Under the pieces are notes generated by a model. It was not told where the DNA came from, ran no database searches, and worked only from the letters and a program-made list of their open reading frames with translations. A DNA stretch of 64,000 nucleotides from an uncultured Desulfobacteraceae bacterium (GTDB taxonomy: Bacteria; Desulfobacterota; Desulfobacteria; Desulfobacterales; UBA5852): positions 186,001-250,000 of the forward strand of contig CAJXSL010000001.1 in NCBI GenBank assembly GCA_913060875.1, in the 5' to 3' direction. Below, in pieces: positions 8,693 through 63,499 of the stretch (positions are counted from its first letter, which is position 1; each line of letters begins with the position of its first letter). The position numbers and the translations under genes are program-made.

Positions 8693-10093
8693 TCACCCGG
8701 CAATACGTTTGCCAGGCTGCAAAGGGTCCGAAACGGTTTCGCCGCGTTGGCGGCGGGTGACGCCGCTGCGAATGGCCCTGTGGGCGGCGGCATCCAGTGG
8801 GTAGGCCACGGCCACGGCCAGGGCCACGATGTTGCACAGGCAGGGAACCAGCGCGTAGAGGATGCGCAGCGTCGTTACCACCTGTTCGGGCTGGTCGATG
8901 TTGGGCTCGTAGCCGACCCTGCCCAGGAAGGCCAGGGCCGCTCCCACCCCCACCGCGGCCGCCAGCTTTTTGGCAATGGACCAGATGCCGATGTAGAGGC
9001 CTTCCCGCCGTTGGCCGGTCAGCAGTTCATCATAGTCGATGACGTCCGCCTGGATGGCGGACGGCAGGGCCAGGGTTGCTCCGAACCCCAATCCGGAGCC
9101 TACCACCAGAATACCGTAAAGCCATTCATCGCCGGGCCCCAGGAAGAAGACCCCCATGAAGATGCCGGTGTTGATGGCCATGGATAGCAGCCAGGCGTTC
9201 TTTTTCCCATAGCGGCCGGCCAACTTGATCCAGGCCGGCAAAAAGAAAATGCCGGTGACGAAGTAGAGCATCAGGAAGAGATCGGCCCGCTGGGACTGCA
9301 GGACGTATTCCACATAGTAGAGAATGAGCGTGGCCGGCAGGTTGCTGCCCACGGCACTGATGGTATAGGCCGTCAACAGGATCAAAAAAGGGCGGTTTTC
9401 CCCGATGCTGCGCCAGCCTTGCAAGGTGGGCGCGGCGGCTGTCCGTTGTCCGCCGGCAGGGGTTTCACGGATGCGGTAGACGCACCAGGCGCAGGTGCCG
9501 ATCAGGAAGGGGGCGTAGCAGACAGCCAGCCAGAAGAATTTTCGGCGTTCACCCTCCTGGGAAGGGCCTGTGTCCAGGATCGCCCCGACCAGGGCCGGCG
9601 ATATGGCGGCCAGCAGGGTGCCGGCGATCAGAAGCCCGTCCCTTACGGCAAACAGGCTGGTGCGCTCGTCGTAGTCGAAGGTGAGTTCCGGTCCCAGCGA
9701 CTCATAGGGCACGGTGACCGCCGTCCAGCACAGGAACAGGGCGAAAATCCACACCCCGAACCACAGGGTGTGATTTTCGGCGGGATCGTCGGGAGGCGTA
9801 AACAACAGCAGCATGGTCAGCGCCACGCACACACCACCCGCCAGGATATAGGGCCGCCGGCGGCCGAGGGGGGTGCGGGTGCGGTCGGAAAGCACCCCGA
9901 TCAGGGGATCCGAGACCGCGTCGAAGAGACGCACGGCCAGAAGAATAATACCCATCATCGCGATATCGATGCCCACCACGTCGCTGTAGAACTTCGGGAT
10001 GTAGACATAGACGGGAATGCCCACCACGGCCAGGGCAAAGGCCGGCAGGCCGTAGGCCACTTTGTCCGACCAGATCATGCGGCTCGTTGTCAT
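8693..10093 (-). CDS. MFS transporter of the glycoside-pentoside-hexuronide (GPH) type
   Basis: This 466-residue protein has twelve predicted membrane segments. The N-terminus has FALAVVGIPVYVYIPKFY, and the first cytoplasmic loop reads DAVSDPLIGVLSDRTRTPLG, the GPH/MelB signature. GPH carriers usually import sugars with Na+ or H+. However, members next to cyclopropane-synthase and flavin amine-oxidase genes occur in clusters for unusual fatty acids, and this one is in such a cluster. It starts inside the stop of the chalcone-isomerase-like gene (4-base overlap), so the two are one transcript. The substrate is unknown. Confidence 0.9.
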   Translation of the reverse strand: MTTSRMIWSDKVAYGLPAFALAVVGIPVYVYIPKFYSDVVGIDIAMMGIILLAVRLFDAVSDPLIGVLSDRTRTPLGRRRPYILAGGVCVALTMLLLFTPPDDPAENHTLWFGVWIFALFLCWTAVTVPYESLGPELTFDYDERTSLFAVRDGLLIAGTLLAAISPALVGAILDTGPSQEGERRKFFWLAVCYAPFLIGTCAWCVYRIRETPAGGQRTAAAPTLQGWRSIGENRPFLILLTAYTISAVGSNLPATLILYYVEYVLQSQRADLFLMLYFVTGIFFLPAWIKLAGRYGKKNAWLLSMAINTGIFMGVFFLGPGDEWLYGILVVGSGLGFGATLALPSAIQADVIDYDELLTGQRREGLYIGIWSIAKKLAAAVGVGAALAFLGRVGYEPNIDQPEQVVTTLRILYALVPCLCNIVALAVAVAYPLDAAAHRAIRSGVTRRQRGETVSDPLQPGKRIAG

Positions 10094-10659
10094 CGAACCC
10101 CCAGCAGCGTGTCGCGAAAGTCTTCATCGATGGGCTCCGGCCCCAGCCAGATGGCAAACACGGCGGCGGCAAAATCGTCGCCGGGGATGCGGCCCAGCGG
10201 CTGGCCGTTCAAGGAAAGCTCGGTTCCGCGCTGCGGCAGATAGGTCAGGGCATAGCGATCACCGGGCTGGACGTCCCGGTAAAGGGCGTTGAAGGTCTTC
10301 AGGCGCTCCTGGATGGATGCCATGGCTTCGGGAGATACGTTGTCTCCTATTTTCTGGGTCGTGGCCTCGGCAAAATCGGCCGCACTGATGGCGTGGAAAT
10401 ATTGCAGCTCCAGGCGCCGCGGCGCCGATGCCAGGGCCTGGCTGGCATCATCCTGGGGTCGCATGTAAAGGGCCCCCACATAGGCTTTGATAAAGTACAT
10501 GTAGCGCAGCAGACCGACGCCACGCAGATGAAGCTGGGTGGCTGCAGCCTGGAAGGTCTTCTCGAAAGCAACCCCTTCGATGGCTACCGCCCCGAAGCCG
10601 GGGGGGGCTGTGCCAAGCAAGACCGCGGTAAGTATGATGACAGATATGAAAAGCTTCAT
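10090..10659 (-). CDS. exported chalcone-isomerase-like protein
   Basis: I use the ATG at 10659 (189 residues), after AAAGGA. The protein begins with a signal peptide (MKLFISVIILTAVLL...GFGAVA). The mature part contains GVAFEKTFQAAATQLHLRGV and GLLRYMYFIKAYVGALYM. These are the hallmarks of the bacterial chalcone-isomerase-like domain, which in plants and some bacteria binds fatty acids rather than isomerising flavonoids. A periplasmic fatty-acid or lipid-binding role fits the cluster. It is coupled to the MFS gene by a 4-base overlap. Confidence 0.85.
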   Translation of the reverse strand: MKLFISVIILTAVLLGTAPPGFGAVAIEGVAFEKTFQAAATQLHLRGVGLLRYMYFIKAYVGALYMRPQDDASQALASAPRRLELQYFHAISAADFAEATTQKIGDNVSPEAMASIQERLKTFNALYRDVQPGDRYALTYLPQRGTELSLNGQPLGRIPGDDFAAAVFAIWLGPEPIDEDFRDTLLGVR

Positions 10660-10920
10660 GGCTGTTATATCCTTTGGAATCATTGACGTTTCGCAAAGAT
10701 AAGGTCGCAAGCCTGTTTGACAAGTCGGATGGTTCGCGTTGGATTGCCCTCCCGGTCGGACGCTGGTATTGCGAAGGATGCGGGGATGCTTATTCTTTTT
10801 CATTCCATGCCATTTCTATCTCAGAGCGAAGCCGCCGGCTGATGCCGGTTTAAGCATTCATGAAAATAGCGCCTGTCGCGCTGGTCGCTTTTGGTATTTC
10901 GATGTCGACGCGAAGCGTCG
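10660..10920. other. intergenic region between divergent genes
   Basis: This is the divergent promoter region of the chalcone-isomerase-like gene and the SRPBCC-SDR gene. It contains no credible ORF. I see short inverted segments (GCCGGCTGATGCCGG) but no strong promoter boxes. Confidence 0.5.
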
Positions 10921-10957
10921 CCCTTTCAGCTTGACGCTTTGAGCTGGGCGCTTTTTT
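10921..10957 (+). repeat. 14-nt double repeat, copy 1 (family C)
   Basis: TTTCAGCTTGACGC is followed directly by TTTGAGCTGGGCGC and a T-run. Near-identical copies lie at 29435 and 50743. It sits 38 bases before the SRPBCC-SDR start. Confidence 0.65.
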
Positions 10958-10995
10958 ACTAGGGCTATTTTTTCCGAGCAACCGAGAGGACAGGG

Positions 10996-12390
10996 ATGCT
11001 GACCTTGCGAGAGACTATCGATGTGGCCTGCCCGGCCCAGGCCGCCTTCGACTACCTGGCGAATTTCACCAACATCCAGGCTTGGGATTCTAGTGTGCTG
11101 GCGGCCCGCCAGGTGACGGCGGGCGCGCCCCACATCGGAACCCGATTCCGGCTCACGCTCCAATTCGGCGGGCGCCCCGTGCCGATGGACTACCGGATCA
11201 CGGCCATGACACCGCCCCAGCGTCTGGTTCTGGCCGGCCGCGGTGAATCCTTTCGGGCGGAGGACCGGATTACCCTGGCCCCCCTGGCCACAGGCGTTCG
11301 CATCTACTATGAAGCCGATATCGAATTTACACGCCGATGGGGGCGGAAAATAGAACCCCTGCTAGCCCCCTTGCTGCGCCGCAGCGGGCGGCGGGCAATA
11401 CAAAACCTGAAGCAGCAGCTCTCCGGTGAAGGGCGTGTGCCGCGATTGACCCTGGCCACCCGCATGGCGGACCAGGCCATCCTTCCGGGTATCATCGGTT
11501 TTACCCGCCTGGGATACCGTTTTGGGAAAAACCGTTGGCCCCTTACGCCCAATTCCCTGCGCGGACGTACGGTTGTCCTGACCGGCGGGACGTCGGGTAT
11601 CGGCCGGGCTGCGGCTTTCCAACTGATCGCGCTGGGCGCCGAACTCATTCTGGTGGCCCGCGACAGGGCCAAGGCCGAGCAGGTGCAACGGTCCCTCTTG
11701 GCGGCAAGAGAAGATGCCAACGTTTCCATCGAGATCGCCGATCTCAGCTTGATGGCGGACATTCGTGCCCTGGCAAAGCGCATTGCCGCGTCCCATCCGG
11801 CGATAAACGTGCTGATCAACAATGCCGGCGCAATCTTCAACCCGCGTGAGGCCACTGCGGAGGGGATCGAAAAGACATTGGCCACCGATCTTCTGGGCCC
11901 CTTCCTGCTGACCCGTTTGCTCCTGCCGTGTTTGTCAGCGGGCCAAACGGCCCGCATCGTCAATGTCGCCTCGGGGGGCATGTATACCCGCGGGATCGAC
12001 CTGGAGAATCTCGACTCCGCCCAGGGGGCTTATAACGGTGCCGAGGCCTATGCCCGGGCCAAGCGGGGGCTGGTGATATTAACGGAGCTATGGGCGGCGG
12101 CACTGGCCGATAGCGGGATCAGCGTGCATGCCATGCATCCCGGATGGGTGGACACCCCCGGCCTCGAGCGGTCCCTGACCGCGTTCCACCAACGCCTGCG
12201 CCCCTGGCTGCGCACTCCCGAAGAGGGGGCCGACACGATTGTCTGGCTGGCGGCCTCGGCCGAAGCGGGACGCACATCCGGGCTCTTCTGGCGGGATCGT
12301 CTCCCGCGGGCCACCCATGTTTTTCCGGGAACGAAGTCGCCGTCCCGTGAACGAAAAGAATTGATGGCGCGTCTGGAACGGCTGGCCTGA
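10996..12390 (+). CDS. SRPBCC-SDR fusion protein (lipid-binding domain plus short-chain dehydrogenase)
   Basis: This 464-residue protein joins two domains. Residues 1-145 form an SRPBCC/polyketide-cyclase-like hydrophobic-pocket domain (LRETIDVACPAQAAFDYLAN...). Residues 190-445 form a classical SDR with the NAD(P) motif TGGTSGIGR, LINNAG, catalytic Ser in VASGG and Tyr/Lys in YARAK. SDR members occur in fatty-acid-modification clusters with cyclopropane synthase and flavin amine-oxidase genes; the fused lipid-binding domain suggests it presents a fatty acyl or phospholipid substrate. The ribosome site is GAGAGGACAGGG. It is divergent from the chalcone-isomerase/MFS pair and followed by the PP2C gene. 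Confidence 0.88.
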   Translation: MLTLRETIDVACPAQAAFDYLANFTNIQAWDSSVLAARQVTAGAPHIGTRFRLTLQFGGRPVPMDYRITAMTPPQRLVLAGRGESFRAEDRITLAPLATGVRIYYEADIEFTRRWGRKIEPLLAPLLRRSGRRAIQNLKQQLSGEGRVPRLTLATRMADQAILPGIIGFTRLGYRFGKNRWPLTPNSLRGRTVVLTGGTSGIGRAAAFQLIALGAELILVARDRAKAEQVQRSLLAAREDANVSIEIADLSLMADIRALAKRIAASHPAINVLINNAGAIFNPREATAEGIEKTLATDLLGPFLLTRLLLPCLSAGQTARIVNVASGGMYTRGIDLENLDSAQGAYNGAEAYARAKRGLVILTELWAAALADSGISVHAMHPGWVDTPGLERSLTAFHQRLRPWLRTPEEGADTIVWLAASAEAGRTSGLFWRDRLPRATHVFPGTKSPSRERKELMARLERLA

Positions 12391-12454
12391 TCCTGCGCGG
12401 TTGGCTGCGCGATGAGATAACCTCATGGGCTATGAAAGAGATTGACCAACTATT

Positions 12455-14026
12455 ATGAATTCCCCCCCGATACCCTCATCCTTGCGGCATAGGGACGCCG
12501 ATCCCATCGTTATAGCGGACCGCAACGGCGTGATCACCTATGTCAATCAACGGTTCTTGGAATGTTATGCCTGGTCGGCGGAGCTTGTCGGTGCCAGTCT
12601 GACCCGCATCATTCCGGCCCATTTCCACGATTCCCACAACATGGGGTTCTCGCGGTTTCTCGTGACCGGGCGTTCGCGCATCGCCGACCATCCCATGGAG
12701 GCCCCCGTGCGTCGGGGCGACGGCCGCCTGGCGCTTGCCGAGCACCTGATCGTGGTGGAGCAAATTCAGGGCGAGTGGGTGATCGGGGCCTGCCTGAAGC
12801 CGCTTCACCTTCATTCGACCCTGCCGGATTCCCACTTCTCCGGGGCGGCCGGCCCTGTTGCGGCCACTCTCGATGAAGTCCGCACCACCATGGGAAAGAT
12901 GGAGATTGCCCTCGGTGAAGTGGAGGACGCCATTGTCTGGACCGATCCGCACGGCATCGTCAACTGGTGCAACGCGGCCTTCGACCGTTTGACCCGGCGG
13001 CCCCACATGGACATCATCGGTGCGCGGATTACCGAAATACTTCCGCTGAAGCTGGAGGGGCGACCGGTTGAGCCGGACGAACATCCCCTGGCCCGCGCCC
13101 TAAGGAGTGACTGCCGCCATACCGAATATGAATTGGACCGACCCGGGCCGCCGGTGGTGCTGGAGATCAACGGCGCCCAGTTCCTGCTGACCGCGTCTGA
13201 GCGTGCCGTCATCCTGGCCATGCGTGATATGAGCGGGCGCAAGCAGATGGAGGCGTCCCTGCGGGCCTCCCGCAGGCGTATGGAAGACGAATTGAATGTC
13301 GCCCATGAGATCCAGATGAATCTCATGCCGCGCCGGTTCCCCGAAGGACCCGAATTCCGGCTACATGCCGCCATTCATCCGGCCCGTGAAGTGGGCGGCG
13401 ATTTCTATGACGTTTACTTCATCGATCCGGAACAGCTTTGCATCTGCGTCGGCGATGTGTCCGGCAAAGGGGTCCCGGCGGCCCTTTTCATGGCCCTGGC
13501 CAAGACACTCGTGCGCGATCGCGCTGAAGGCAGGATGGCCCTGGTCGACGTGATTCGCCAAGTCAATCGTACCATCAGCAATGACAATCCGTCACACATG
13601 TTTGTTTCCCTGTTTCTGGCTGTCCTGGACATCCCCACCGGCAAGCTGACCTATGTCAATGCCGGTCACAACCCGCCGTTGCTGCGTCGAATGGATGGCA
13701 CGCTGCAGAAGATGGACCGCCCCCATGGCCCTGTCCTGGGAGCATCGGAGCATTCCCGCTACGCCGACGCAAGCGTGATGCTGGGTGGCGGGGATATCGT
13801 CCTGCTTTACACCGACGGGTTGACCGAGGCCATGAATGCCAAAGGTGAGCTCTTTTCCGAAAAGCGCCTGACCCGCCTTGTGTCGGAACGGCCCCCTTCG
13901 CCCCACGACCTTACCCGGTCGCTGCTCCGGGCGGTCAATACGTTTCAAAACGGCACACCGCCCTCGGACGACATAACCCTCCTGGCGTTGGAATACCGCC
14001 GCTATCCTTTAGCCTACGACATCTAA
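12455..14026 (+). CDS. PAS-PAS-SpoIIE (PP2C) serine phosphatase
   Basis: This 523-residue cytosolic regulator has PAS domain one at about 12-125 (PIVIADRNGVITYVNQRF), PAS two at about 145-270 (AIVWTDPHGIVNWCNAAF), a short coiled linker, and a SpoIIE/RsbU phosphatase at about 300-520. The metal-binding motifs GGDFYD, CVGDVSGKG and LYTDGLTEA are present. Such phosphatases remove phosphate from anti-sigma antagonists of STAS type in response to signals sensed by the PAS domains. STAS-like proteins are encoded at 30289 and 60891. It lies inside the lipid cluster between the SDR fusion and the convergent DUF1365-CFAS gene and may control it. Confidence 0.92.
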   Translation: MNSPPIPSSLRHRDADPIVIADRNGVITYVNQRFLECYAWSAELVGASLTRIIPAHFHDSHNMGFSRFLVTGRSRIADHPMEAPVRRGDGRLALAEHLIVVEQIQGEWVIGACLKPLHLHSTLPDSHFSGAAGPVAATLDEVRTTMGKMEIALGEVEDAIVWTDPHGIVNWCNAAFDRLTRRPHMDIIGARITEILPLKLEGRPVEPDEHPLARALRSDCRHTEYELDRPGPPVVLEINGAQFLLTASERAVILAMRDMSGRKQMEASLRASRRRMEDELNVAHEIQMNLMPRRFPEGPEFRLHAAIHPAREVGGDFYDVYFIDPEQLCICVGDVSGKGVPAALFMALAKTLVRDRAEGRMALVDVIRQVNRTISNDNPSHMFVSLFLAVLDIPTGKLTYVNAGHNPPLLRRMDGTLQKMDRPHGPVLGASEHSRYADASVMLGGGDIVLLYTDGLTEAMNAKGELFSEKRLTRLVSERPPSPHDLTRSLLRAVNTFQNGTPPSDDITLLALEYRRYPLAYDI

Positions 14027-14029
14027 CCC

Positions 14030-14090
14030 GAACATGGCATGAAATTTTTCCTACACCAATGAACATCTCGAACGCGTTAAATATCCGGGT
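14030..14090. repeat. stop-codon-associated repeat (family D), between convergent genes
   Basis: It fills the gap between the PP2C stop and the DUF1365-CFAS stop. One arm (CCCGAACATGGCATGAAATT) follows the PP2C TAA and the other (CCCGGATATTTAACGCG on the minus strand) follows the CFAS TAA. It matches both ends of the long copy at 25437-25697 with the interior deleted. Confidence 0.65.
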
Positions 14091-16099
14091 TAACCCATTT
14101 GGGTCTTCTCAGATGGCAGGCGACAAAGATTGGCGTTGCCCTCGCGGGTGAGGACCAGCTGCAGGTCCCCCAGGATCCGTTCCCGGAACCCGGCCTCACA
14201 GCTCGACAGGTAGTACTCCCATTTGCGTCGGAACCGGCGATCGAAGCCCAGGGCCGCAACCTGGTCGCGGGCCGCCAGGAAACGGCGGCGCCATTCGGCC
14301 AGGGTGGGGGCGTAATGGTCGCCGATATTTTCGGCATGCTCCACCATGAGGCGGGAGTGTCGCGTCATGGTGCGGGTCAGGACGGTGAGGGACGGCAGCA
14401 ATCCGCCGGGGAAGATGTGTTTCTGAATCCAGTCGTGTTCCTTGCGATAGCGATCATAGCGCTGGTCGGGGATCGAGATGGTCTGGAGAACGGCGATGCC
14501 CCCGGGTTTGAGCAGACGTTCGAGGGTGCGGAAGAAAATACGGTAATAGGCGTGCCCCACGGCTTCCAGCATTTCGATGGACACGATTTTGTCGAACTGT
14601 CCGGTGATATGGCGGTAGTCTTGGAATTCGATGTTTATCCGATCGGTCAGACCGGCTTCCTGCACCCGGGTGCGGGCCTCTTGATACTGTTCGCGGGAGA
14701 CCGTGACGCCGGTGACCCGGCAGCCCGTCCGGCGCACGGCCTCGATGGCAAAGCCGCCCCACCCGCAGCCGATTTCCAATACGTGATCGTTGGCGCCAAG
14801 GCGTGCTTTGCGGATAATGGCGGCGAATTTGGTCTCCTGGGCTTCTTCCAGCGATGCGTCGGGCCGGGGATAGAGGGCGCAGGAATAGGCCATGGATTCA
14901 TCCAGAAAGGTCTGGAAAAAAGCGTTGGATAAGTCGTAATGCCGGTGGATGTTGCGCCGGCTTCCCCACAACGTGTTGCGCCGGGACAGGTGGCGCAGCC
15001 ATTCCACACCCCGGCTGACGAGCGTGCTCCGGAAACGGCCGTCATGGACCGTGTCGCGATTGCGGATGAAAAAGCGGACCACGGCCGTGGGGTCCTCGCT
15101 GTCCCACTCATCGTCCATAAACGCTTCCCCAAAGCCGATATCGCCGGCCAAAACGACCCGTGTGAAAAACCGATAGGCGTTGACCCGCAGCTCGACCGCA
15201 GGGGATGCGCCATCGCCGAAATCCCGTGCGGTTCCGTCGGGCAGGATCAGGCGCAGGCCCCCCCGGCGGGTGCGCCCCAGATAATTTTCCACCAGGGCCA
15301 TGCAGCGACGCTCCAGGGCGGTCGGGGGCAGGCGCTTGATGGTCATTCGGCTGAGCGGCACGGGTTTGGGGTGGTAGGTCAACCCGCGCCGGAACCGCAA
15401 CTTGAATGCTTCCCGGTAGATGCGGGGGATGGTCAGGTGCGGCATCACCGGGTGGCGCATCACGGTCTTGAAATGGTTGCAAGGGGTCAGGGGCCGTGGG
15501 TTACCCTTGAGACGGGCCTTCAAAAGGATCTGGTCGCCCTGATGAAGGTCGATGTGCACATCCAGTTCCCGCCGCACGTCGGCAAAAGAAAAATGGTAGC
15601 GTCCCTCCACCCTGTTGAAGGGGGAAACATGAAAGGCCTTTTCGGCTTCATAGCGGGCAGGGTAGGCGGGCGGCCCGCCGTTGGAAGGGGTCAGCACATA
15701 GACATGGCGTTCGCCGAAGGTATTGTTGACTTCGGCCACGTTGCCGAGCAGGTTCTCCCGGTGGTCATAGCAGTAGTAGAGGCTGACCGGATTGAAAACA
15801 TACCCCAGGTAGCGGCAGGCGGTTACCATGACGATGCGGTCGATGCGCTCCACCGGCAACTGCGTTCGGACGATGTCCAGAACTTTGTCACGGATCGGCC
15901 GTTCGCTGGTGTCCAGATAATCGCGATCCCAGAGGGAAACGGGGCGGCGCCGGTTATAGCCGAACAGCGGCAGCTGCCGGTCCAGTCGGCTCAGTTCGCC
16001 AAGATCAAGGGCATAGACATAGAGCGGATAAAGCAGGCGGTGATCCGTCGGGTGAAGACGACGGTGTTCCACATAGCCTTTGTAGAGCATGGACGTCAT
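14090..16099 (-). CDS. DUF1365-cyclopropane-fatty-acid-synthase fusion
   Basis: This 669-residue protein fuses DUF1365 (about 1-245, with GYVFNPVSLYYCYDH) to a SAM-dependent CFA synthase-type methyltransferase (about 260-660). The SAM motif VLEIGCGWGGFA, the active-site Cys in SMAYSCALY, SIEMLEAVGH and IQKHIFPGG are all present. Such enzymes transfer a methyl group to the double bond of membrane phospholipid acyl chains, giving cyclopropane, methyl-branched or furan-precursor chains. The two domains are usually separate neighbouring genes; here they are one polypeptide. It overlaps the flavoprotein gene by 4 bases (ATGA), so the two are made together. Confidence 0.93.
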   Translation of the reverse strand: MTSMLYKGYVEHRRLHPTDHRLLYPLYVYALDLGELSRLDRQLPLFGYNRRRPVSLWDRDYLDTSERPIRDKVLDIVRTQLPVERIDRIVMVTACRYLGYVFNPVSLYYCYDHRENLLGNVAEVNNTFGERHVYVLTPSNGGPPAYPARYEAEKAFHVSPFNRVEGRYHFSFADVRRELDVHIDLHQGDQILLKARLKGNPRPLTPCNHFKTVMRHPVMPHLTIPRIYREAFKLRFRRGLTYHPKPVPLSRMTIKRLPPTALERRCMALVENYLGRTRRGGLRLILPDGTARDFGDGASPAVELRVNAYRFFTRVVLAGDIGFGEAFMDDEWDSEDPTAVVRFFIRNRDTVHDGRFRSTLVSRGVEWLRHLSRRNTLWGSRRNIHRHYDLSNAFFQTFLDESMAYSCALYPRPDASLEEAQETKFAAIIRKARLGANDHVLEIGCGWGGFAIEAVRRTGCRVTGVTVSREQYQEARTRVQEAGLTDRINIEFQDYRHITGQFDKIVSIEMLEAVGHAYYRIFFRTLERLLKPGGIAVLQTISIPDQRYDRYRKEHDWIQKHIFPGGLLPSLTVLTRTMTRHSRLMVEHAENIGDHYAPTLAEWRRRFLAARDQVAALGFDRRFRRKWEYYLSSCEAGFRERILGDLQLVLTREGNANLCRLPSEKTQMG

Positions 16100-17367
16100 A
16101 GCGTGATCCCGAAAGCGTCGGCCACGCGGGTGGCTGACCGCACGGCGTCTTCATGAAAGCCGTATCCGAAATAACTGCCGCAGTAAGAGGTGCGGTTGCG
16201 GCCGTTGAGCTGGGCCAGCTGCGGCTGGGTGGCCAGACTGGCGAAGCTGAACATGGGGTGGGTATAATTCAGCCGGGTGACCACGTACCGATCTTCGATA
16301 TCACGGTTCGGATTCAAGGTGACGAAATAGGGGGACTGGGTTTCGAGCCGCTGGAGACGGTTCATGTGGTAGGTCAGGGTGACCGGCGCACGCGGGGAGG
16401 CCCCGATTTCCCGGGTGTAGTTCCAGGAAGCCCAGGCCCGCGGTTGGGACGGCATGAAACCCGGGTCCCTGTGCAATACGATGCGATTGTGGCTGTAGCG
16501 CCAGGGCTTCAGCAGGCGCTGTTCGTCTTCGGTCGGGTCGTCGAGCAGTTGCAGGGCCTCGTCGGCATGGGTGGCAATGACAACGTGATCCAGGTGGCGC
16601 TGGCGGCCGTTCGACATGCGCAGGGTGGCTCCATCCCGGTCCCGGCGAATGCCGGCGACGGCGGCATTGCAGACGATATCCCCCTGGAATTGGACCTTGA
16701 AAGCCTTGACATAGGCGTGGCTGCCTCCCCTGACGACGTACCACTGGGGCTGGTCGCGCACGGTGAGAAGCCCGTGATTGCTGAAGAAGCGGGCAAACGT
16801 TGCCATCGGGAAATCGGCGATATCGTCATCCGGCGATGACCAGATCGCCGCTGCCATGGGAATGATATATTGTTCGCGAAAGCGGCGGCTGAAGCCAAAG
16901 CGGTCCAGGAACCGGCCCAGGGTCAGCGTTTCCAAACGGCCGGCGGCCAACTCCCGGGAGGCCGTGCGGTTGAACCGCAGGATGCCCAGCAGCATGCGCA
17001 GAAAACCGGCATCGAGACAATTGATGCGTCGGGCAAACAGGCCGTTCAGGCTGTGACTGGCATACTGGAACCCCGAGGCTTCGCAGAAATAACTGAACGA
17101 CATGTCACTGGCCAGGATTGGAACCCTCAACTGCTCCAGGAGGCGGGTGAAGTTCGGATAGGTGCGGTCGTTGAGGACGATGAACCCCGTATCCACCGGT
17201 GTTCCGGCATCCGGGCCGTCCGGAATGACAATCGTATGGGTATGCCCCCCCACATAATCGTTTTTTTCATAGAGGGTGACCTTGTGGCGGCGCTGAAGAA
17301 GAAAAGCGGCGGTAATCCCGGCCACGCCGCCACCCACGACGGCAATGTTCAGAGGGGGACTCGTCAT
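16096..17367 (-). CDS. FAD-dependent amine-oxidase-like protein of the fatty-acid cluster
   Basis: I choose the ATG at 17367 (423 residues), which has GGAG about seven bases upstream; an earlier ATG at 17388 has none. The N-terminus is the FAD-binding Rossmann motif NIAVVGGGVAGITAAFLL followed by YEKNDYVGGHTHT. The protein belongs to the NAD/FAD-binding flavin amine-oxidase group that accompanies DUF1365 and CFA synthases and is thought to desaturate or otherwise oxidise phospholipid acyl chains. It is the first gene of a two-gene operon with the DUF1365-CFAS fusion. Whether it introduces a double bond before methylation or reduces one afterwards cannot be read from sequence. Confidence 0.9.
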   Translation of the reverse strand: MTSPPLNIAVVGGGVAGITAAFLLQRRHKVTLYEKNDYVGGHTHTIVIPDGPDAGTPVDTGFIVLNDRTYPNFTRLLEQLRVPILASDMSFSYFCEASGFQYASHSLNGLFARRINCLDAGFLRMLLGILRFNRTASRELAAGRLETLTLGRFLDRFGFSRRFREQYIIPMAAAIWSSPDDDIADFPMATFARFFSNHGLLTVRDQPQWYVVRGGSHAYVKAFKVQFQGDIVCNAAVAGIRRDRDGATLRMSNGRQRHLDHVVIATHADEALQLLDDPTEDEQRLLKPWRYSHNRIVLHRDPGFMPSQPRAWASWNYTREIGASPRAPVTLTYHMNRLQRLETQSPYFVTLNPNRDIEDRYVVTRLNYTHPMFSFASLATQPQLAQLNGRNRTSYCGSYFGYGFHEDAVRSATRVADAFGITL

Positions 17368-17543
17368 CGGCATCTCCATTCGCGGCATCTGTTTGACGGA
17401 GGGAGGAACCCGAGGGGTGTTTCGGTATCAGGGATGGTAGCCGCTTTTCGGTGCTGCGTCAACCGTTTGGGATAAATTCATAATGTGATTTGAATACCTT
17501 ATCGTGTTAATCGAAAGCGGCCAGCCACCCTGGCGCCCCTTGC

Positions 17544-56959: not shown

Positions 56960-57231
56960 TGTTCTGTAACGGGTTGGGTATAAGGAGCGCGACTTTAGGG
57001 ACAGGAGCAATAACGGACATGTTTAATCGGCGATACCGGTGCTGTCGCTGTTTTGCTGTTGATATATCTGCGCTGACTGTTGAATAGTCTGCCAATAATG
57101 AATAATTATGATGCGATCCAATATGCCTACTATATGCCTATATGCTTCCCATGGAAAAAAGGCACGCCATCGACCCAATTGCACACCACGGCTAAAAATG
57201 GTATTGTACCCTAAATACTAAGGACACGACC

Positions 57232-57678
57232 ATGACACTATTCACCATCGGTTATGAAGGGCTCGACGAACGGCAATTTATGGCGCACCTATCCCACCAT
57301 GGTGTGGATTTGGTCGCAGACGTACGAAAGCTACCGGTCAGCCGCAAAAAGGGCTTCTCAAAGACGGCGTTGGGTGAAATGCTCAAGAAACGCAAGATTA
57401 GCTATCTTAATTTTCAGGTGCTCGGTGCTCCCAAAAACATCCGCGAGGAACTTTATCGTTCAGGTGATTACCAGCGCTTCTTTCTGCGATACCGGGATAG
57501 CATCGCCGATAAGCAGAACGACCTTAAAGCGATCCTCAACCTAATCCATTCAGGCCAGAACGTTACATTGCTTTGCTTTGAGCGGGATCCCCAAAAATGC
57601 CACCGTAAGGTGGTCGCCGAAGAAATCAAAAAAATCGACGGTAATGGCTTAAAGGTCAACCACATCATTCCCATCTAA
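57232..57678 (+). CDS. DUF488 family protein
   Basis: This 148-residue protein has the family marks TIGYEGLDERQFM at the start, VADVRKLPVSRKKGF, and CFERDPQKCHRKVVAEEI near residue 120. The conserved Arg/Lys and Cys/His sites suggest nucleic acid or nucleotide binding, but no reaction is established. AAGGACACGACC precedes the ATG. Its stop overlaps the stop of the convergent gene by three bases. Confidence 0.9.
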   Translation: MTLFTIGYEGLDERQFMAHLSHHGVDLVADVRKLPVSRKKGFSKTALGEMLKKRKISYLNFQVLGAPKNIREELYRSGDYQRFFLRYRDSIADKQNDLKAILNLIHSGQNVTLLCFERDPQKCHRKVVAEEIKKIDGNGLKVNHIIPI

Positions 57679-58472
57679 GCAAAAAGCGCTCTCTGCTGGG
57701 TTGCATGTCTTGGCGGATAAAAAAAGCCCAAAACACAAAACACTTGTTGGTGATTAGCCATATTCCCCAAAATAATGTAAGTGTCACGATTCTCGCCAAA
57801 AATGTCCTTGCGGATCTTATCCTTGATTTTCGTCTCAAAATCACGGTCATACCTTAGCCGCCTGTATAGCTGACCAAACTCCCAATCGAGGATGCTCATC
57901 TTGTGGCCTCCGCAAGCGGGGTCCCTACAGAAAAATTCGATCGATATTCGGATGGGTAGGATGTAAAGATCTTTTTTTTCCTCAAACATGTCGATCTGGC
58001 TTATTATACTATCCTTCTTAGCGGTCGCCTCGGCCACTTCATACTCTTTTCGGGGTTCTATTAAAACTCGCTTGAGCATTTTAGGTTTGACCAACCCCAG
58101 GGATGTCTTCTTGTCGGCCTGGGCATCACGAAGTGCCTTAACCGATGGATAGACATTGTGTTTTTGAAGGATCCAAACACATCGTCTTCTCCAATCTTTG
58201 CTTGGCTCAATAACTTCGCCCAGTTCAATAGAGTCCGGATCGATCGTATAACTTTCGGGTCGAGAGTCCGCCGTTGATTTATGAATGGCGGCTCGTATCC
58301 ATTGGTATTTTCTAAACTGCTGGTTTCCTTCAAGGTATCGAAACCGGATGGGATAAAGTCTTACCAACGATCGTGACTCGGCCAAAATGCCGGCTGTGCA
58401 AACGGTTTCGGTGTATTTCCGGCTAATCTCGGGATATGTTTTGACAAAGATCAGAATATCCTTCTTGGCCAT
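57675..58472 (-). CDS. unknown protein convergent with DUF488
   Basis: The ATG at 58472 follows AAGGAG, giving 265 residues. It has FVKTYPEISRKYTETVCTAG at the start and a CRDPACGGHKMSILDWEFGQ motif near 205 that could bind a metal (Cys, Cys, His). No known family is recalled, but proteins of this size beside DUF488 genes are familiar to me. Normally such partners are collinear; here they converge with overlapping stop codons, so each mRNA could silence the other. It is AT-richer than the surrounding genes. Confidence 0.75.
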   Translation of the reverse strand: MAKKDILIFVKTYPEISRKYTETVCTAGILAESRSLVRLYPIRFRYLEGNQQFRKYQWIRAAIHKSTADSRPESYTIDPDSIELGEVIEPSKDWRRRCVWILQKHNVYPSVKALRDAQADKKTSLGLVKPKMLKRVLIEPRKEYEVAEATAKKDSIISQIDMFEEKKDLYILPIRISIEFFCRDPACGGHKMSILDWEFGQLYRRLRYDRDFETKIKDKIRKDIFGENRDTYIILGNMANHQQVFCVLGFFYPPRHATQQRALFA

Positions 58473-58503
58473 AGTGACTCTCCTTGGCGGCTCACATCGG
58501 GGA

Positions 58504-58533
58504 CTATTAAGGGACGGGGGGCTATTAAGGGAC
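58504..58533. repeat. direct repeat CTATTAAGGGAC
   Basis: The 12-mer CTATTAAGGGAC occurs at 58504-58515 and 58522-58533. This type of AAGGGAC repeat is often left beside REP-associated transposases, but none is seen here. Confidence 0.5.
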
Positions 58534-58659
58534 ATTGTTGACAAACTACACAAAGAGTTTTGGTTTGTACTCTTATTCAACAGCGTCCACCTAACTGCCT
58601 TTAATGGAAGTTGTTGAATTATTTAAGGGCGTCCAACATGACGCACGTTGGTCTGAGGA

Positions 58660-59154
58660 TTACTTATACGTATTGTTACGCAACGTCTCTATGTCGTATT
58701 CATCCTTTGATATTGTCATGATCAACTCGTAGTTTGTTGGTGTCAATGATTTTTGGATCTGTTTTTCATCAAAGGGATTATTTTGCAAACACGTTCCTAT
58801 TTCTTGAATATTTTCCTCACCTCGGAACATGAGATGTCTAGTAAACATGCAAAAACCAAATAATTTGCCAAATTTTTCATTGTTTCCTGCTATGTTGCCA
58901 CTGACGGATGCAGATGCGTATTCGAAGCATTCTTTTGTAAAGGGTTTCAACTCTTTGAGGCATTGATCCCTGTCAATATTTAGACATTTTAAATACGATG
59001 GTTGATCGCAATACAGATAAGCCCCTTTTTTCTTGAATTGCTGTGAAAGAATTTGATTTTGAATATCATCGGTAAGTACAATTTCATGTTTTTCTGTTTG
59101 AGCGCAACCTATCATCAGAAAGAGGGCAAAAGCACAGAGGAATGTTTGGCGCAT
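58660..59154 (-). CDS. small lipoprotein of unknown function
   Basis: The ATG at 59154 is preceded by AAGGA, giving 164 residues. The signal ends FLMIGCAQT, a lipobox. The mature part has seven cysteines (YLYCDQ, LKCLN, DQCL, KECF, FGFCMF, GTCL), suggesting disulfide bonds in the periplasm. No family is recognised. It is AT-rich with low-GC codons, unlike the window's core genes. Confidence 0.7.
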   Translation of the reverse strand: MRQTFLCAFALFLMIGCAQTEKHEIVLTDDIQNQILSQQFKKKGAYLYCDQPSYLKCLNIDRDQCLKELKPFTKECFEYASASVSGNIAGNNEKFGKLFGFCMFTRHLMFRGEENIQEIGTCLQNNPFDEKQIQKSLTPTNYELIMTISKDEYDIETLRNNTYK

Positions 59155-59276
59155 GGGAGCAGTCCTTGTTTTATTATTTAAGCACGTCACGAATGATCTA
59201 TCCGCATTGTCTATCAAGTTAAAGCGTAAAGCACGTTCTTTACGAATGTTCCCTTTATGTATAGAAAATCAAACTA

Positions 59277-59480
59277 TTATTTCTTTCTTTCACAAAACGC
59301 CCAAATTAAAACAAAAATCCACAAGGCTATTGTCCAACCTCCAAAAAGATTTACCAAAAATATCAAAAATGTCGCAGCAGAATTTCTGCCCGATGCGATG
59401 ACAGTCGGAAAAAAATAAATATACAAAGCAACAATGCCGATTATAATATAGAAGATTATTTCCAATCCTGACTCTGTCAT
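59277..59480 (-). CDS. superinfection-immunity-like small membrane protein
   Basis: This 67-residue protein has two membrane helices. The second contains FLVNLFGGWTIALWIFVLIWA, matching the pattern of the superinfection immunity (T4 Imm-like) family, where a conserved Asn-Gly-Trp-Thr segment lies before the second helix. In phage T4 the protein blocks DNA entry of a second phage; bacterial homologues are mostly uncharacterised. Its ribosome site is weak. It sits in the AT-rich accessory stretch. Confidence 0.7.
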   Translation of the reverse strand: MTESGLEIIFYIIIGIVALYIYFFPTVIASGRNSAATFLIFLVNLFGGWTIALWIFVLIWAFCERKK

Positions 59481-59680
59481 ACTTTTATCATTTCAGCGTT
59501 AAATCTTGCGATATCTTATGAAGATTGACGCTAACGTTGAGATCAGGTGCAGATGAAATCTTACAACCAATAGATTAATAAAAATTGTGGCGACTAAATA
59601 CATATTTTGCTAAAAGCGATGCCGTCTTTGGCTGCAGTCTGAAGAATTTGGTTTGACTTCGGTATAAAGGTATTAAAAAA

Positions 59681-60406
59681 TTATTGTACCATTTTCTGCA
59701 TTTCAATAATGCGCATTCTCTGTGATGTGTTGTCAATTTTTATCGTCATATCAAAAACAGTTTTTACATATATATTCATTGTAGGTTCTTTTATAAAATA
59801 TCCATTATAAATCACAGGTATTGAGGAGCCATTTACCCTTAGTTTTCCTTCGCCTTTGATTTCCACCAGTGGGTATTTTCGATCTTTATAATAGGTTTCC
59901 CCGTGGACATAGCAGTACGCATCTATTTCCATATTCGCCTTACCAAAGTAGAGATTATATTTTGATGGAATTATTTCACCGGATGAGGCATAGGGGGAAA
60001 GGTAGAGCCCTAAAGATTTCTTGAAAAGTCCTTTTAAGGAGTTAGTTTGGCTGGGCGTAAGAACACCTGACTTGTCAACAATATGAATTATCTTTTGGTT
60101 TTTTTGGTTATACTGAACCAATAAATTCTTTATTTCAAAAGTTACTATATCATCATGAACTTTCATAGATATTATATTATTTTCTGTTTCTTCCTTCTCG
60201 GGTGAAATAGTTGTTAGTACCTGCTCAATTTTATACTCTCCTTCCGGCATGCTTGTGTTGAACAACAATAAATTATTTTTTTGTTCAATACTGAAGCATT
60301 CACCGTCATAGCAAAACGTGGGCTCGACATTAAACTTTTCAGGCTGTTGCGATGATACACATCCGAATAAAAATAAAGAAATGAGTATTATAACAAATTT
60401 TTTCAT
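59681..60406 (-). CDS. lipoprotein of unknown function
   Basis: I use the ATG at 60406 (241 residues), with AAGGGA six bases upstream. The signal ends in SLFLFGCVSS, a lipobox. The rest is beta-rich with FCYDGECFSIEQKNN near residue 30 and no catalytic motif; it might be a surface or periplasmic binding protein. It is strongly AT-rich. No family is recognised. Confidence 0.7.
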   Translation of the reverse strand: MKKFVIILISLFLFGCVSSQQPEKFNVEPTFCYDGECFSIEQKNNLLLFNTSMPEGEYKIEQVLTTISPEKEETENNIISMKVHDDIVTFEIKNLLVQYNQKNQKIIHIVDKSGVLTPSQTNSLKGLFKKSLGLYLSPYASSGEIIPSKYNLYFGKANMEIDAYCYVHGETYYKDRKYPLVEIKGEGKLRVNGSSIPVIYNGYFIKEPTMNIYVKTVFDMTIKIDNTSQRMRIIEMQKMVQ

Positions 60407-60890
60407 ATACATTCCCTTGTGTTTGAATGTGGGTAAACTGAGTTGCCAAGGAACTTATTACGCAACAACACGCTGCAATTAACAGATTGATCAAGCCAAC
60501 GAACTATAGCTCTTGCGACGCGTACTTGTCGATACTACTACTTTCTATCAACCGGGTATCGATCGATCATTTCAGCATCAAGCAACCCCCTATGGGAATC
60601 GCCCTATATCTTGACCAAAGCAATCCACGCGCAACCCTCCTGAAGGTGACGCCCTGCTTTTTTAAATTTTCATTATGCCGGCTTGGGGGGTAATTCTGGT
60701 GGTGCCTGATACAAAGATGGACAGAATTCGTTATGAACTAATACTCATATATATTGACATGGGTTTTTAGTCAATCATTTCAAAGAGTAGGTCGGTTCAA
60801 AAATGCTGCCGCCGGCACAGCAATGAACGTTGGGTTGGGATTGGATAACCACAAGTGGGGTTGGGCGCCTTATTGCGGTGACTGCGTTGA
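60407..60890. other. 484-bp region without a recognised gene
   Basis: Short ORFs exist, but none has a family match, a good ribosome site or a convincing length. Base composition changes here from the AT-rich stretch back to the GC-rich core, so a boundary of transferred DNA may lie at about 60.7-60.8 kb. Confidence 0.4.
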
Positions 60891-61289
60891 TCAGGCCGGT
60901 GAGTGCGGGATGGCGGTATCGTCATCGCTCCCGCAACCTATCCAGGCCAGGGCTTTCGCCATGTCGAGGAAAATTTCCGAGCTGCATCCGGCGCATTCGG
61001 CGTTGATGCAGAACATGCGGCCCATGGCATAGGTGAAGGAGCCGCGTTCCGCCACGAAGACCATTTTGTTGAAGAAGCGATTGCGTTTCAGGTCGTAGAC
61101 GATCCTCTCGATTTCATGCCCCGGCACGTCGATATGGGCCTTGCGAAGATCGATCAGGGTATCGATGGGCACCTGGAAAGACGGGTCGGCGGTGATGTCA
61201 TCCCATGTCCTGTAGAAGTCCCTGACGGTCACCACGCCTTCGGCCTTGAACAGCAGCAGATAATCTTTGAGGAGGTAGGATATGGGCAT
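60891..61289 (-). CDS. STAS/SpoIIAA-like protein (paralogue-like to 30289)
   Basis: The start at 61289 gives 132 residues. Strands and helices (ISYLLKDYLLLFKAEGVV, IDTLIDLRKAHIDVPG, FNKMVFVAERGSFTYAMG) have the same order as the protein at 30289 and end ALAWIG. It has two cysteines in FCINAECAGCS that its relative lacks. Function is unknown, perhaps a signalling partner of the histidine kinase encoded next to it, which lies on the same strand. Confidence 0.65.
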   Translation of the reverse strand: MPISYLLKDYLLLFKAEGVVTVRDFYRTWDDITADPSFQVPIDTLIDLRKAHIDVPGHEIERIVYDLKRNRFFNKMVFVAERGSFTYAMGRMFCINAECAGCSSEIFLDMAKALAWIGCGSDDDTAIPHSPA

Positions 61290-61492
61290 TGGCGGAGCGA
61301 TTCCTGTCGTTATGAGAATTATCTTCCAGGTGCCGAGGCGTACCATGCCAGAAAAATACAATAAGATCAAGTGGACGGGTAATTTTTTGCAGTGAGAAGG
61401 GGTCAAGGGTTCAGAGGGGCGAGGGTTCAAGTGTTTATTCGTTAAGGACTGAAGCAGCGCCTTTAGCGCATAGCGCCAATAGCGGTTTGGGC

Positions 61493-63499
61493 CTATCGAT
61501 TCAACTCTTCTCGAACCGCGGCCGCGATTTTTTTAATGGCGTAGGGCTTCCGGATATACTGTCCGGCCCCTAATGCCTGAACTTGTTTGACCTGGTCGGA
61601 TTCCGAGTAGCCGCTGGCGATAATGGCCCGCTGCCCCGGATCCTGTTCGATGATGCGCCGATAGGTTTCCAAACCGCCAATACCGGGATCCATGACCATG
61701 TCCAGCAGGATCAAATCGGCTTTGTTCGTTTTCAGGTATTCGACCGCGGCTTCACCGCTGGAAACGGTATCGGCCTTATATCCCAACTGGGTGAGAATCG
61801 CCGCGGCGATCGTGCGCTGGTTGGCGGCGTCGTCCACGACTAGGATGCTTTCCCCCTTTCCCACATAATTCTCTCCAGAAGACTCGGGTTCGATTTTGCC
61901 GGTTTGCCTTGTCACCGGCAGGTAGATCGAAAAAGAAGTCCCCTGGCCAAGGGCACTGTTAACTTCGATGTAGCCGTTGTGATCTTTGACCGTGCCCCAG
62001 ACAATGGCCATTCCAAGGCCGGTCCCGCTGCGGCCAAGCACTTTTTTGGTATAGAACGGTTCAAAAATGCGGCCGATGCATTCGGGCTCGATTCCGGTAC
62101 CGGTGTCGGAGATCCGCAGGCGCACATAATCGCCCTCCGCAACGGTCTCGTAGCCTTTAACAGGGGTATCGATATAGATATTGTCCGTCGTGATCGTAAT
62201 GGTGCCGCCATCCGGCATGGCTTCGATGGCATTGTTGACCAGGTTCATGACGGTTTTCTGCAGGTGAATCTTCGAGCCGGCCACCGGCATGATGTCGGGT
62301 GCAAATCGTGTGGTGATGTTGACCTGGGGGTGAAGGGTCACCATGTGTTCCAGTTCCGGCGTCCTGAGATGGTCGGAAACAATCTGGCCGATGTCGACCA
62401 CATCGACCAGGGCAACGCTGCGACGGGACAGCGCAAGCAGGTCCTGAACGATGGCTACGGCCCGGTGGCCCGAATTTTTAATGGTCTCCAGGGGTTCGTA
62501 TAGCGGGCTGTCTTCCGCTATCTGCATCAGCAGGAGTTCAGGGTAGCTGGTGATGCCCGAGAGAATGTTGTTAAGGTCGTGGGCCACCCCGGCCGCCAGC
62601 AGGCCGATGGCTTCCATTTTTTGGGCCCGGTTCAGTTCTTCCTGCATCTGGATCCGTTCGTTGATTTCCGCTTTCAGCTGATCGTTAGAGTTTTGAAGCT
62701 CCATGGTGCGCTGGGTCACCAGTTCTTCCAGATTTTCCCTGTGTTCCTCCAGGGCCCGGTCGCGTGCCTGGATCTGGGCCAGCATGTCGTTGAAGCTGTC
62801 GATCAGACGGCCCAGTTCATCTTCGGACTGGAAGGCGACTCGCTGGCTGTAATCGCGTTTGGAAGAGACGAGGTGCATGGTCTTGAGCACATCCTCGAGG
62901 GGAGCGGTGATGACACGCTGGAGGCGGACACAGGCGGCCTGGGCGGCAAAAAAAAGCAGGATGCTGCCGAATACCGTCCACGAGCCGAAATGGCCCAACC
63001 GGCGGTTGATTCGGGTCATGTCCGCCCTGATGGCCACATGGCCGATGGTTGCGCCGTTCAAAAGAATGGGGTGGGATAGATCTAGCTGATGGTAGCCGAT
63101 TTCGACAACCTCGCGCTGATTTGCAAAGCGGCCGATGCAGGTTTGCACTTCTTCGGCCGCAACGACGGGCGTACCCTCGGGCGTTTTTTTCTCGTAAGAC
63201 TGGAAAACCAGGCCATCGGCACTGAAAATATGTGCCATGAGAATATCCGATTCCGCACTGAGGGCGGAAAGAATTTCTTCGGCGGTACCGGGGTCGTCGA
63301 ACGCGAGAGCAGCGGTGCTGTTGATACCAATGACCTTTGCCAGGGTGGATATGTTTTCCACCATGGCCTGGCGATAGGAGATGTATTTGTCTCCGATGAA
63401 ATATGTGGCCATCAGGCCGATCAAGACGCCGCAAATGACCAGAACAATGAACAACAGCTTATTGCGGATGGACAGTTTGCGATAGAATCGATTCATCAT
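61493..63499 (-). CDS. hybrid sensor histidine kinase with CHASE8, HAMP and receiver domains
   Basis: This 668-residue protein has membrane helices at about 14-34 and 170-192. Between them is a CHASE8-like sensor (INSTAALAFDDPGTAEEIL). A HAMP (about 193-245) and coiled coil follow, then HisKA with phospho-His307 in GVAHDLNNILSG. The ATPase domain has NLVNNAIEAMPDGG and GTGLGMAIVWG, and a receiver (about 545-665) has LILLDMVMDP. It phosphorylates itself and its receiver; no separate output protein is adjacent. It overlaps the upstream YfiR gene by 4 bases, so the YfiR protein probably modulates it. Confidence 0.94.
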   Translation of the reverse strand: MMNRFYRKLSIRNKLLFIVLVICGVLIGLMATYFIGDKYISYRQAMVENISTLAKVIGINSTAALAFDDPGTAEEILSALSAESDILMAHIFSADGLVFQSYEKKTPEGTPVVAAEEVQTCIGRFANQREVVEIGYHQLDLSHPILLNGATIGHVAIRADMTRINRRLGHFGSWTVFGSILLFFAAQAACVRLQRVITAPLEDVLKTMHLVSSKRDYSQRVAFQSEDELGRLIDSFNDMLAQIQARDRALEEHRENLEELVTQRTMELQNSNDQLKAEINERIQMQEELNRAQKMEAIGLLAAGVAHDLNNILSGITSYPELLLMQIAEDSPLYEPLETIKNSGHRAVAIVQDLLALSRRSVALVDVVDIGQIVSDHLRTPELEHMVTLHPQVNITTRFAPDIMPVAGSKIHLQKTVMNLVNNAIEAMPDGGTITITTDNIYIDTPVKGYETVAEGDYVRLRISDTGTGIEPECIGRIFEPFYTKKVLGRSGTGLGMAIVWGTVKDHNGYIEVNSALGQGTSFSIYLPVTRQTGKIEPESSGENYVGKGESILVVDDAANQRTIAAAILTQLGYKADTVSSGEAAVEYLKTNKADLILLDMVMDPGIGGLETYRRIIEQDPGQRAIIASGYSESDQVKQVQALGAGQYIRKPYAIKKIAAAVREELNR

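Follow-up and report, generated by a model that had tools for sequence, protein, structure and literature searches.

A candidate furan-fatty-acid gene set with a DUF1365–methyltransferase fusion in a sulfate-reducing Desulfobacteraceae bacterium

The ufa-like locus

The window analyzed here is a stretch of 64,000 nucleotides from an uncultured Desulfobacteraceae bacterium (assembly GCA_913060875.1, contig CAJXSL010000001.1). It harbors a locus that encodes homologs of UfaD, UfaO, and UfaM, the enzymes of a furan fatty acid (FuFA) pathway, with UfaO (DUF1365) and UfaM (a CMAS-family methyltransferase) joined in a single protein (Table 1). An FAD/NAD-binding amine-oxidase-type protein, as is characteristic of UfaD, is encoded immediately before ufaO, and the start codon of the fusion gene and the stop codon of ufaD share 4 bp (ATGA). 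The probable ufaD start is Met8 of its open frame and aligns with an ATG in another genome of the genus (G003). A preliminary description of this DNA had listed a GPH-type MFS transporter and chalcone-isomerase-like, SDR, DUF1365, cyclopropane fatty acid synthase (CFAS)-type, and amine-oxidase-like proteins, and each of these genes lies where it had been placed.

Table 1. Features of the locus and its surroundings (positions in the window)
Feature	Positions	Strand	Evidence and remarks
UfaD-like FAD oxidoreductase, Amino_oxidase family, 430 aa	16096-17388	-	PF01593 4.3e-24; probable start 17367
UfaO-UfaM fusion (DUF1365-CMAS), 669 aa	14090-16099	-	PF07103 and PF02353 in one frame
DUF1365/UfaO domain of the fusion	15359-16087	-	PF07103 residues 5-247, 3.3e-74
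CMAS/UfaM methyltransferase core of the fusion	14171-14959	-	PF02353 residues 381-643, 3.1e-87
SRPBCC-SDR fusion, 464 aa, accessory	10996-12390	+	PF10604 residues 1-142 (Polyketide_cyc2/SRPBCC), PF00106 residues 192-390
Chalcone-isomerase-like protein (Chalcone_3)	10090-10803	-	PF16036 5.9e-42
GPH/MFS_2 transporter	8693-10093	-	PF13347 1.3e-103; TIGR00792 above cut-off
PAS-PAS-SpoIIE phosphatase	12455-14026	+	PF07228 3.3e-51; lies between the genes for the fusion and SRPBCC-SDR
Candidate sigma-70-like promoter upstream of ufaD, TTGACG-17-TACCAT	17434-17462	-	consensus scan alone

The pathway is known from Rhodobacter sphaeroides and Rhodopseudomonas palustris; statements from published articles refer throughout to the sections of text available for each. 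UfaM, which is CFAS-like, converts cis-vaccenate into 11-methyl-12-trans-18:1, UfaD then makes a conjugated diene, and UfaO forms the furan using O2 (PMC7380195). The functions of UfaD (RSP1091), UfaO (RSP1090), and UfaM have been established genetically, single deletions of RSP1087, 1088, and 1089 left the fatty acid profile unchanged, and homologs of the trio are stated to occur across bacteria (PMC7380195). PMC10940516 lists the R. sphaeroides proteins as Q3IYV7 (UfaD), Q3IYV8 (UfaO), and Q3J4I7 (UfaM). The window has the same three families as Rhodobacter/Cereibacter sphaeroides RSP1091, RSP1090, and RSP2144 and R. palustris RPA2571-2569, and its gene order ufaD-ufaO-ufaM is that of RPA2571-2570-2569. 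Unlike in the Rhodobacter pathway, UfaO and UfaM form one polypeptide, no RpoE-ChrR pair was found, and the host is a sulfate reducer. Gene families and gene order are thus those of the UfaD-UfaO-UfaM pathway, in which the encoded proteins would presumably be active.

At 44-46% identity, the window UfaD resembles the FAD oxidoreductases encoded at three ufa loci on plasmids, and its nearest solved structure is LkcE (7.7e-40). One of the three, on Azospirillum plasmid pAB510d, has sigma factor and cupin genes alongside, and its trio is homologous to that of the window protein by protein. Joined enzymes also occur in plants. AtUFAMD1 (AT3G23510) matches both UfaM and UfaD (PMC10940516) and therefore resembles the window fusion in combining two members of one pathway. 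The partners differ: plants carry UfaD and UfaM as one protein and a separate UfaO (AT1G30130), whereas the window joins UfaO to UfaM and keeps UfaD separate. DUF1365 is mentioned in seven papers of the literature searched. In one of them, from 2008, a "DUF1365-OMT" protein is tabulated for Desulfococcus oleovorans Hxd3, without a function, pathway, or distribution in the available text (PMC2613160); it probably has the same domain architecture as the window fusion.

The methyltransferase part

The CMAS part of the fusion matches Escherichia coli Cfa (PDB 6BQC) at 1.4e-57. CFAS models match the fusion from residue 277 onward, so the N-terminal CFAS part is retained, and the fusion is the sole strong CMAS match in the genome (295.6 bits; next best 27.6). 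Family membership, E239, and Y317 (E. coli Cfa numbering) are shared with Cfa, from which the window protein differs by A and Q in place of H240 and H266 and by the fused DUF1365. The resulting E239/A240/Q266/Y317 pattern is widespread among relatives, with A240 in 24/24 fused and 78/79 unfused rows and Q266 in 23/24 and 78/79, respectively. In this count G015, G056, and G060 each enter the unfused rows twice, and rows with stops or fewer than 300 residues (L082 and L158 among them) are left out. The unfused exception (L161) is of the canonical type and encoded on the opposite strand, and the fused one (L052, Desulfacinum infernum DSM 9756) has a frame that stops ~90 residues early relative to its relatives. 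H240/H266 is found in 13/13 canonical-type CFAS rows (eight plus five of a second group), and three FufM-like rows also have H at both positions. EAVG and Q266, as in the window, are also found in the UfaM of L175, the Azospirillum pAB510d locus with the sigma factor and cupin genes. The fusion gene of G013 (L158 8740-10658) is frameshifted in its UfaM part, which may be real or a sequencing error.

The preliminary description had offered the cluster as a candidate for making 10-methyl and cyclopropane fatty acids without oxygen, a reading in which the FAD protein would be a methylene reductase and which is considered very unlikely here. In cyclopropane formation, Glu239, His266, and Tyr317 bind the bicarbonate that takes the proton (PMC11387697; for the ligands also PMC3132707). 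Of this canonical set, the fusion keeps E239 and Y317 and carries Q for H266, and its identity as a canonical cyclopropane synthase is weakened by A240/Q266. Cotton GhCPS1 and GhCPS3 are cyclopropane synthases according to the title of PMC3132707. Both share Q266 with the window UfaM (PMC3132707), which speaks for the cyclopropane reading, and the use of Q266 as a full exclusion of cyclopropanation was dropped for this reason. A240/Q266 is therefore a mark of the UfaM/plant group that is insufficient alone against a cyclopropane product. Judged from its residues, such a product of the fusion appears unlikely, and the canonical-type CFAS of the relatives form a separate, unfused group with H240/H266.

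The presence of a CMAS domain and of an adjoining flavoprotein, as in the bfa and tmp operons, also fits the synthesis of such acids, and Desulfobacteraceae do produce 10-methylpalmitic acid (PMC7791843). The 10-methylpalmitate operon in print for Desulfobacter is tmpBA, with a geranylgeranyl-reductase-like TmpA; the operon itself was not shown to be active in the text available (PMC7791843). The tmpBA operon (Desulfobacter postgatei, Marinobacter) and the window have in common a CMAS-family methyltransferase beside a flavoprotein, and tmpBA too occurs in Desulfobacteraceae. They differ in that tmpBA comprises two genes, that DUF1365 is unmentioned in the available text (PMC7791843), and that the window flavoprotein belongs to PF01593, is of the amine-oxidase type, and groups with UfaD, a desaturase. 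A tmp-type operon was considered and does not match the locus, in which a geranylgeranyl-reductase-like TmpA is not next to the fusion. The best match to such a reductase (TIGR02032) lies on another contig (C3) beside a methyltransferase with just 20.6 bits to CMAS. The PF01593 neighbor presumably also differs from the oxidase type of BfaA of the 10-methylstearate operon bfaAB. DUF1365, the conserved partner, has no named role in either pathway and is described as O2-using.

Fatty acid data are available for one bearer of a related trio. The obligate anaerobe Pontiella sulfatireligans F21, which has cydAB and ccoNOP (PMC7356697), carries an unfused trio that belongs to the fusion clade described below (L064). 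Its major acids in the text available (i-C12:0, i-C14:0, C18:0, i-C18:0, and i-C16:0) are straight or iso saturated alone, with no 10-methyl or cyclopropane acid among them (PMC7356697). This comes close to the outcome that the preliminary description had named as refuting, namely strains with the cluster that lack methylated or cyclopropane acids. The case for making such acids without O2 is weak, because the printed Desulfobacter operon is tmpBA.

The DUF1365 part

Fused and unfused UfaO sequences, 85 in all, share ten invariant positions (H12, R14, F102, P104, N126, S159, P160, F161, P217, and I227), and further conserved core positions are common to fused (25 rows) and other (77 rows) forms. 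The UfaO domain is modeled as a strand-rich fold with two C-terminal helices (predicted local distance difference test, pLDDT, 94.2; for the whole fusion pLDDT 87.9 and predicted template modeling score, pTM, 0.74). A Foldseek comparison of the domain model with the PDB found no solved relative at E<=0.001. Among the 50 matches listed for the whole fusion in a viral library, methyltransferases and capping enzymes predominate. VIA-align places the spirocyclases OssO/OlmO and nitrobindins at Z 5.9-6.6 (best 6.6), a common range by the program's own note and too weak for the modeled fold to be assigned to a family.

Distribution of the trio and origin of the fusion

Three sets of genomes were compared, with taxon labels of metagenome-assembled genomes (MAGs) taken from their records. 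A query with the fusion gave 581 relatives, of which the best 80 make up the named loci, a choice biased to near relatives; the order sample comprises 96 genomes around that of the window, and the phylum sample comprises 394 genomes of Desulfobacterota. A ufaD homolog is present at 78 of the 80 named loci, the two misses (L104 and L109) being cut by contig ends. DUF1365 and CMAS form one frame in 20/80, and at L081 the DUF1365 gene precedes ufaD. DUF1365 occurs in 22/96 order-sample and 33/394 phylum-sample genomes. All 28 phylum loci that were read have the order ufaD-ufaO-ufaM on a single strand, 14 of them with the fusion. The fusion claimed in the preliminary description is real, since it is one open frame in 5/5 sampled genomes of the genus, which rules out an assembly artefact.

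The fusion has a nearly single origin. In a tree built by a quick method (no mixture model) from UfaO and UfaM joined, 36 of the 123 rows are fused and the fusion label requires 2 changes versus 31 in shuffles. L051 (same genome as G004), L052 and L161 (unusable as UfaM), L091, L081, the short loci L009, L014, L025, and L028, rows with stops, and short pieces were left out. A single group, with a Shimodaira–Hasegawa-like approximate likelihood ratio test (SH-aLRT) support of 99, takes in every fused row plus four unfused rows of Kiritimatiellota, for which one gain and one later split are the simplest account. The group contains several Desulfobacterota families, Kiritimatiellota, Lentisphaerota, Omnitrophota, Sumerlaeota, and one MAG labeled Paenibacillaceae, and L092 is a long branch within it. 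The fusion clade is thus found mostly in anaerobic lineages. Unfused Desulfobacterota trios fall elsewhere in the tree, among Gammaproteobacteria and others, and the UfaD tree gives nearly the same split (114 rows, 2 changes). One genome (G038) has both kinds of trio, unfused (L007/L164) and fused (L029). Cultured bearers of the fused genes include Salidesulfovibrio brasiliensis.

The unfused trios of Desulfobacterales show further signs of a furan pathway. A further CMAS protein, divergent in sequence (E 1e-35 to 1e-41), is encoded in 11/15 genomes with unfused trios, 0/7 with fused trios, and 1/74 others. That of G061, the one example tested, is closest to coclaurine N-methyltransferase (5e-65 vs 8e-24 for Cfa), the type to which LIME1, the plant homolog of FufM, presumably belongs. 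FufM has been described as resembling plant LIME1/AT4G33110 (PMC10940516). A fatty acid desaturase (PF00487) is encoded directly before ufaD in 3/3 loci scanned (L164, L165, and L167). Together, the FufM-like enzyme and the desaturase at L164 442-6779, L165 5946-15604, and L167 1426-7023 (G038, G033, and G061, respectively) hint that sulfate reducers may make dimethyl furan fatty acids.

Oxygen reduction in the host and in related genomes

The genome of the window encodes DsrA (631 bits), which supports the earlier inference of an anaerobic host. Its COX1 protein adjoins a cytochrome of the FixO type and is scored highest by the cbb3 model TIGR00780 (290 bits, under the cut-off of 583), and three cydA genes for bd oxidase are present. 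With this COX1/cbb3-like operon and three cydA genes, the host is therefore a sulfate reducer equipped for the reduction of O2.

Genomes with DUF1365 also encode COX1, of the heme-copper oxidases, more often, although the counts (COX1 at E<=1e-20) ignore kinship and are suggestive at most. COX1 was detected in 19/22 order-sample genomes with DUF1365 versus 27/74 without (p=5e-5) and in 20/33 versus 119/361 of the phylum sample (p=0.002). Because some matches are fragments or nitric-oxide-reductase-like, with frames near 760 aa (that of G033 included), best matches weaker than 1e-70 were dropped in a recount. The associations became stronger, with 18/22 vs 19/74 (p=3e-6) in the order sample and 20/33 vs 100/361 (p=2e-4) in the phylum sample. 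Of the phylum-sample genomes with unfused trios, 12/16 have COX1 (p=0.001 against 119/361), and fused and unfused trios compare at p=0.15. This count leaves out G171 and G232, takes G338 without its second DUF1365 gene, and treats G064 as unfused, though its ufaO adjoins a canonical-type CMAS gene that runs on the other strand. COX1 is found in 15/15 unfused (14/15 without weak matches) and 4/7 fused genomes of the order sample, and two of the three COX1-negative fused genomes are only ~80% complete. The bd oxidase accompanies DUF1365 in 22/22 genomes of the order sample versus 52/74 of the others.

Proposed pathway and its dependence on oxygen

We infer the reactions of the locus, their products, the O2 trigger, and the benefit to the host as follows. 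The locus would serve an oxygen-exposed sulfate reducer as its FuFA gene set, with O2-triggered synthesis of furan and methyl fatty acids, a reading that stands at about an even chance. Using S-adenosylmethionine, the UfaM part would methylate a monounsaturated acyl chain of a phospholipid at its double bond and shift that bond, yielding a methyl-branched trans-monoene. UfaD would introduce a further double bond in conjugation with the first. Tied covalently to UfaM, the UfaO part would add oxygen across the diene and thereby close the furan ring once O2 enters the cell. The joined protein would hold the first and the last enzyme on the same lipid, and its expression would be independent of the RpoE-ChrR switch of Rhodobacter.

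Several results weigh against this assignment. The link between DUF1365 and COX1 is carried by the unfused trios; genomes with fused trios, at 7/15 in the phylum sample, do not differ from the 119/361 without DUF1365 (p=0.28, or 0.14 without weak matches). The bd oxidase shows no association in the phylum sample (15/33 vs 187/361). Neither COX1 nor bd was detected in 9/33 phylum genomes with DUF1365, three unfused and six fused (G158, G207, G231, G306, G325, and G474); the latter make up 6 of the 15 fused genomes, five of them come from one family, and all are 91-99% complete. A FufM-like enzyme is absent from 7/7 fused Desulfobacterales genomes at E<=1e-30. The window UfaO is only ~26-37% identical to most unfused UfaO, and the Q266 pattern is shared with plant cyclopropane synthases. 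The fatty acid list of Pontiella lends no support either and is neutral on FuFA, because the cells were grown without O2.

A rival reading is an anaerobic variant of the pathway, in which the fused clade would have been re-tooled for O2-independent chemistry. UfaM would methylate as before, and the electrons from UfaD would pass to a quinone or flavoprotein rather than to O2. DUF1365 would isomerize, hydrate, cyclize, or merely present the lipid, leading to methyl-branched mono- or dienoic acids or to furan acids with water-derived oxygen. This variant is rated as rather unlikely. It agrees with the restriction of the fusion to one tree group, mostly of Desulfobacterota, Kiritimatiellota, Lentisphaerota, Omnitrophota, and Sumerlaeota, whose UfaD also forms nearly its own branch, and with the 6/15 fused Desulfobacterota genomes that show neither oxidase. 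The weak resemblance of the UfaO model to ligand-binding or cyclizing barrels (OssO/OlmO and nitrobindins) may point the same way. However, all ten invariant UfaO positions are kept in the window, as in the unfused and presumably O2-using forms. An oxidase is present in 9/15 fused genomes, and several are encoded in the genome of the window. The apparent absences may reflect MAG gaps or matches below the cut of 1e-20, and 3/16 unfused genomes lack both oxidases too. A wider claim takes the fusion clade as an anaerobic offshoot of the furan pathway: oxidase-less strict anaerobes would make methyl-branched conjugated or furan acids without O2, and DUF1365 would not truly be an oxygenase. This claim is judged unlikely.

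Neighboring genes and regulation

The order ufaD, fusion, SRPBCC-SDR (opposite strand), Chalcone_3, MFS is kept in four other genomes of the genus, to the contig limits (L155, L156, L157, and L051), and in G003 (L157) the complete order from LppC to AKR is preserved. The SDR of the preliminary description is present and turns out to be fused to an SRPBCC domain. This double-domain neighbor also occurs in G001, G002, G003, and G013 and, within the genus, at L051. The range given earlier holds the right genes, with the PAS-PAS-SpoIIE phosphatase inside it overlooked. The phosphatase gene is missing between the fusion and SDR genes in G001, G002, G003, and G004 and is probably a local insertion outside the pathway. 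Chalcone_3 homologs lie near 14/80 trios and in 12/20 fetched stretches, and GPH/MFS_2 homologs near 19/80 trios. The chalcone-isomerase gene may start near 10659, ahead of a signal-peptide-like stretch.

The preliminary description had likened the cluster to RSP1087-RSP1091 of R. sphaeroides. The link to furan synthesis through UfaD, UfaO, and UfaM holds. The window SDR was compared with that of the Azospirillum locus of ChrR-linked type, to which it shows 27% identity in 221 residues, too weak a match to sustain the likeness to RSP1087 as stated. The eight-gene core regulon as quoted in PMC5507510 contains no chalcone-isomerase gene. Where the window has SRPBCC-SDR, Chalcone_3, and GPH transporter genes, two plasmid comparators have DUF3833, NTF2-like, and SDR genes (one also phrB). 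Taken as a whole, the earlier interpretation is partly supported.

The absence of a ChrR partner noted earlier extends to the whole genome, as the ChrR-type cupin PF12973 has 0 matches at E<=0.001, with a positive Caulobacter control. Inspection by eye and a search with one short pattern revealed no shared ECF-type motif upstream of ufaD in the three genus members compared, and no regulator adjoins the trio in the genus loci read. The consensus scan for sigma-70-like promoters returned 7 sites/10 kb vs 3.0 +/- 1.7 in shuffles. A role in signaling or membrane stress, in which a trace lipid, rather than a bulk lipid of the membrane, would serve as a redox signal, much as RSP1090/1091 promote the breakdown of ChrR under singlet oxygen, is given a slim chance; neither ChrR in the genome nor a regulator beside the trio was found. 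Such a role would be compatible with O2-triggered FuFA synthesis and is not an alternative that excludes it.

Elsewhere in the window, positions 57000-61500 form a low-G+C stretch (0.385 at 58-60 kb vs ~0.60 over most of the window) that holds small lipoprotein-like ORFs and resembles a foreign island. One of its ORFs is presumably DUF488-like.

Implications

Phototrophs, plants, and other air-exposed organisms are described as making furan fatty acids with O2 to protect their membranes. Among the papers listed in literature searches on furan fatty acids in anaerobes and sulfate reducers, no title or abstract opening reports the pathway for sulfate reducers. A caution follows for lipid biomarkers: the CFAS-type genes of sulfate reducers are not automatically the source of cy17:0 or 10Me16:0. 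A complete trio with two of its enzymes fused, conserved in sulfate reducers and other anaerobes, would allow a direct test of a role in oxygen exposure versus an O2-independent form of the pathway.

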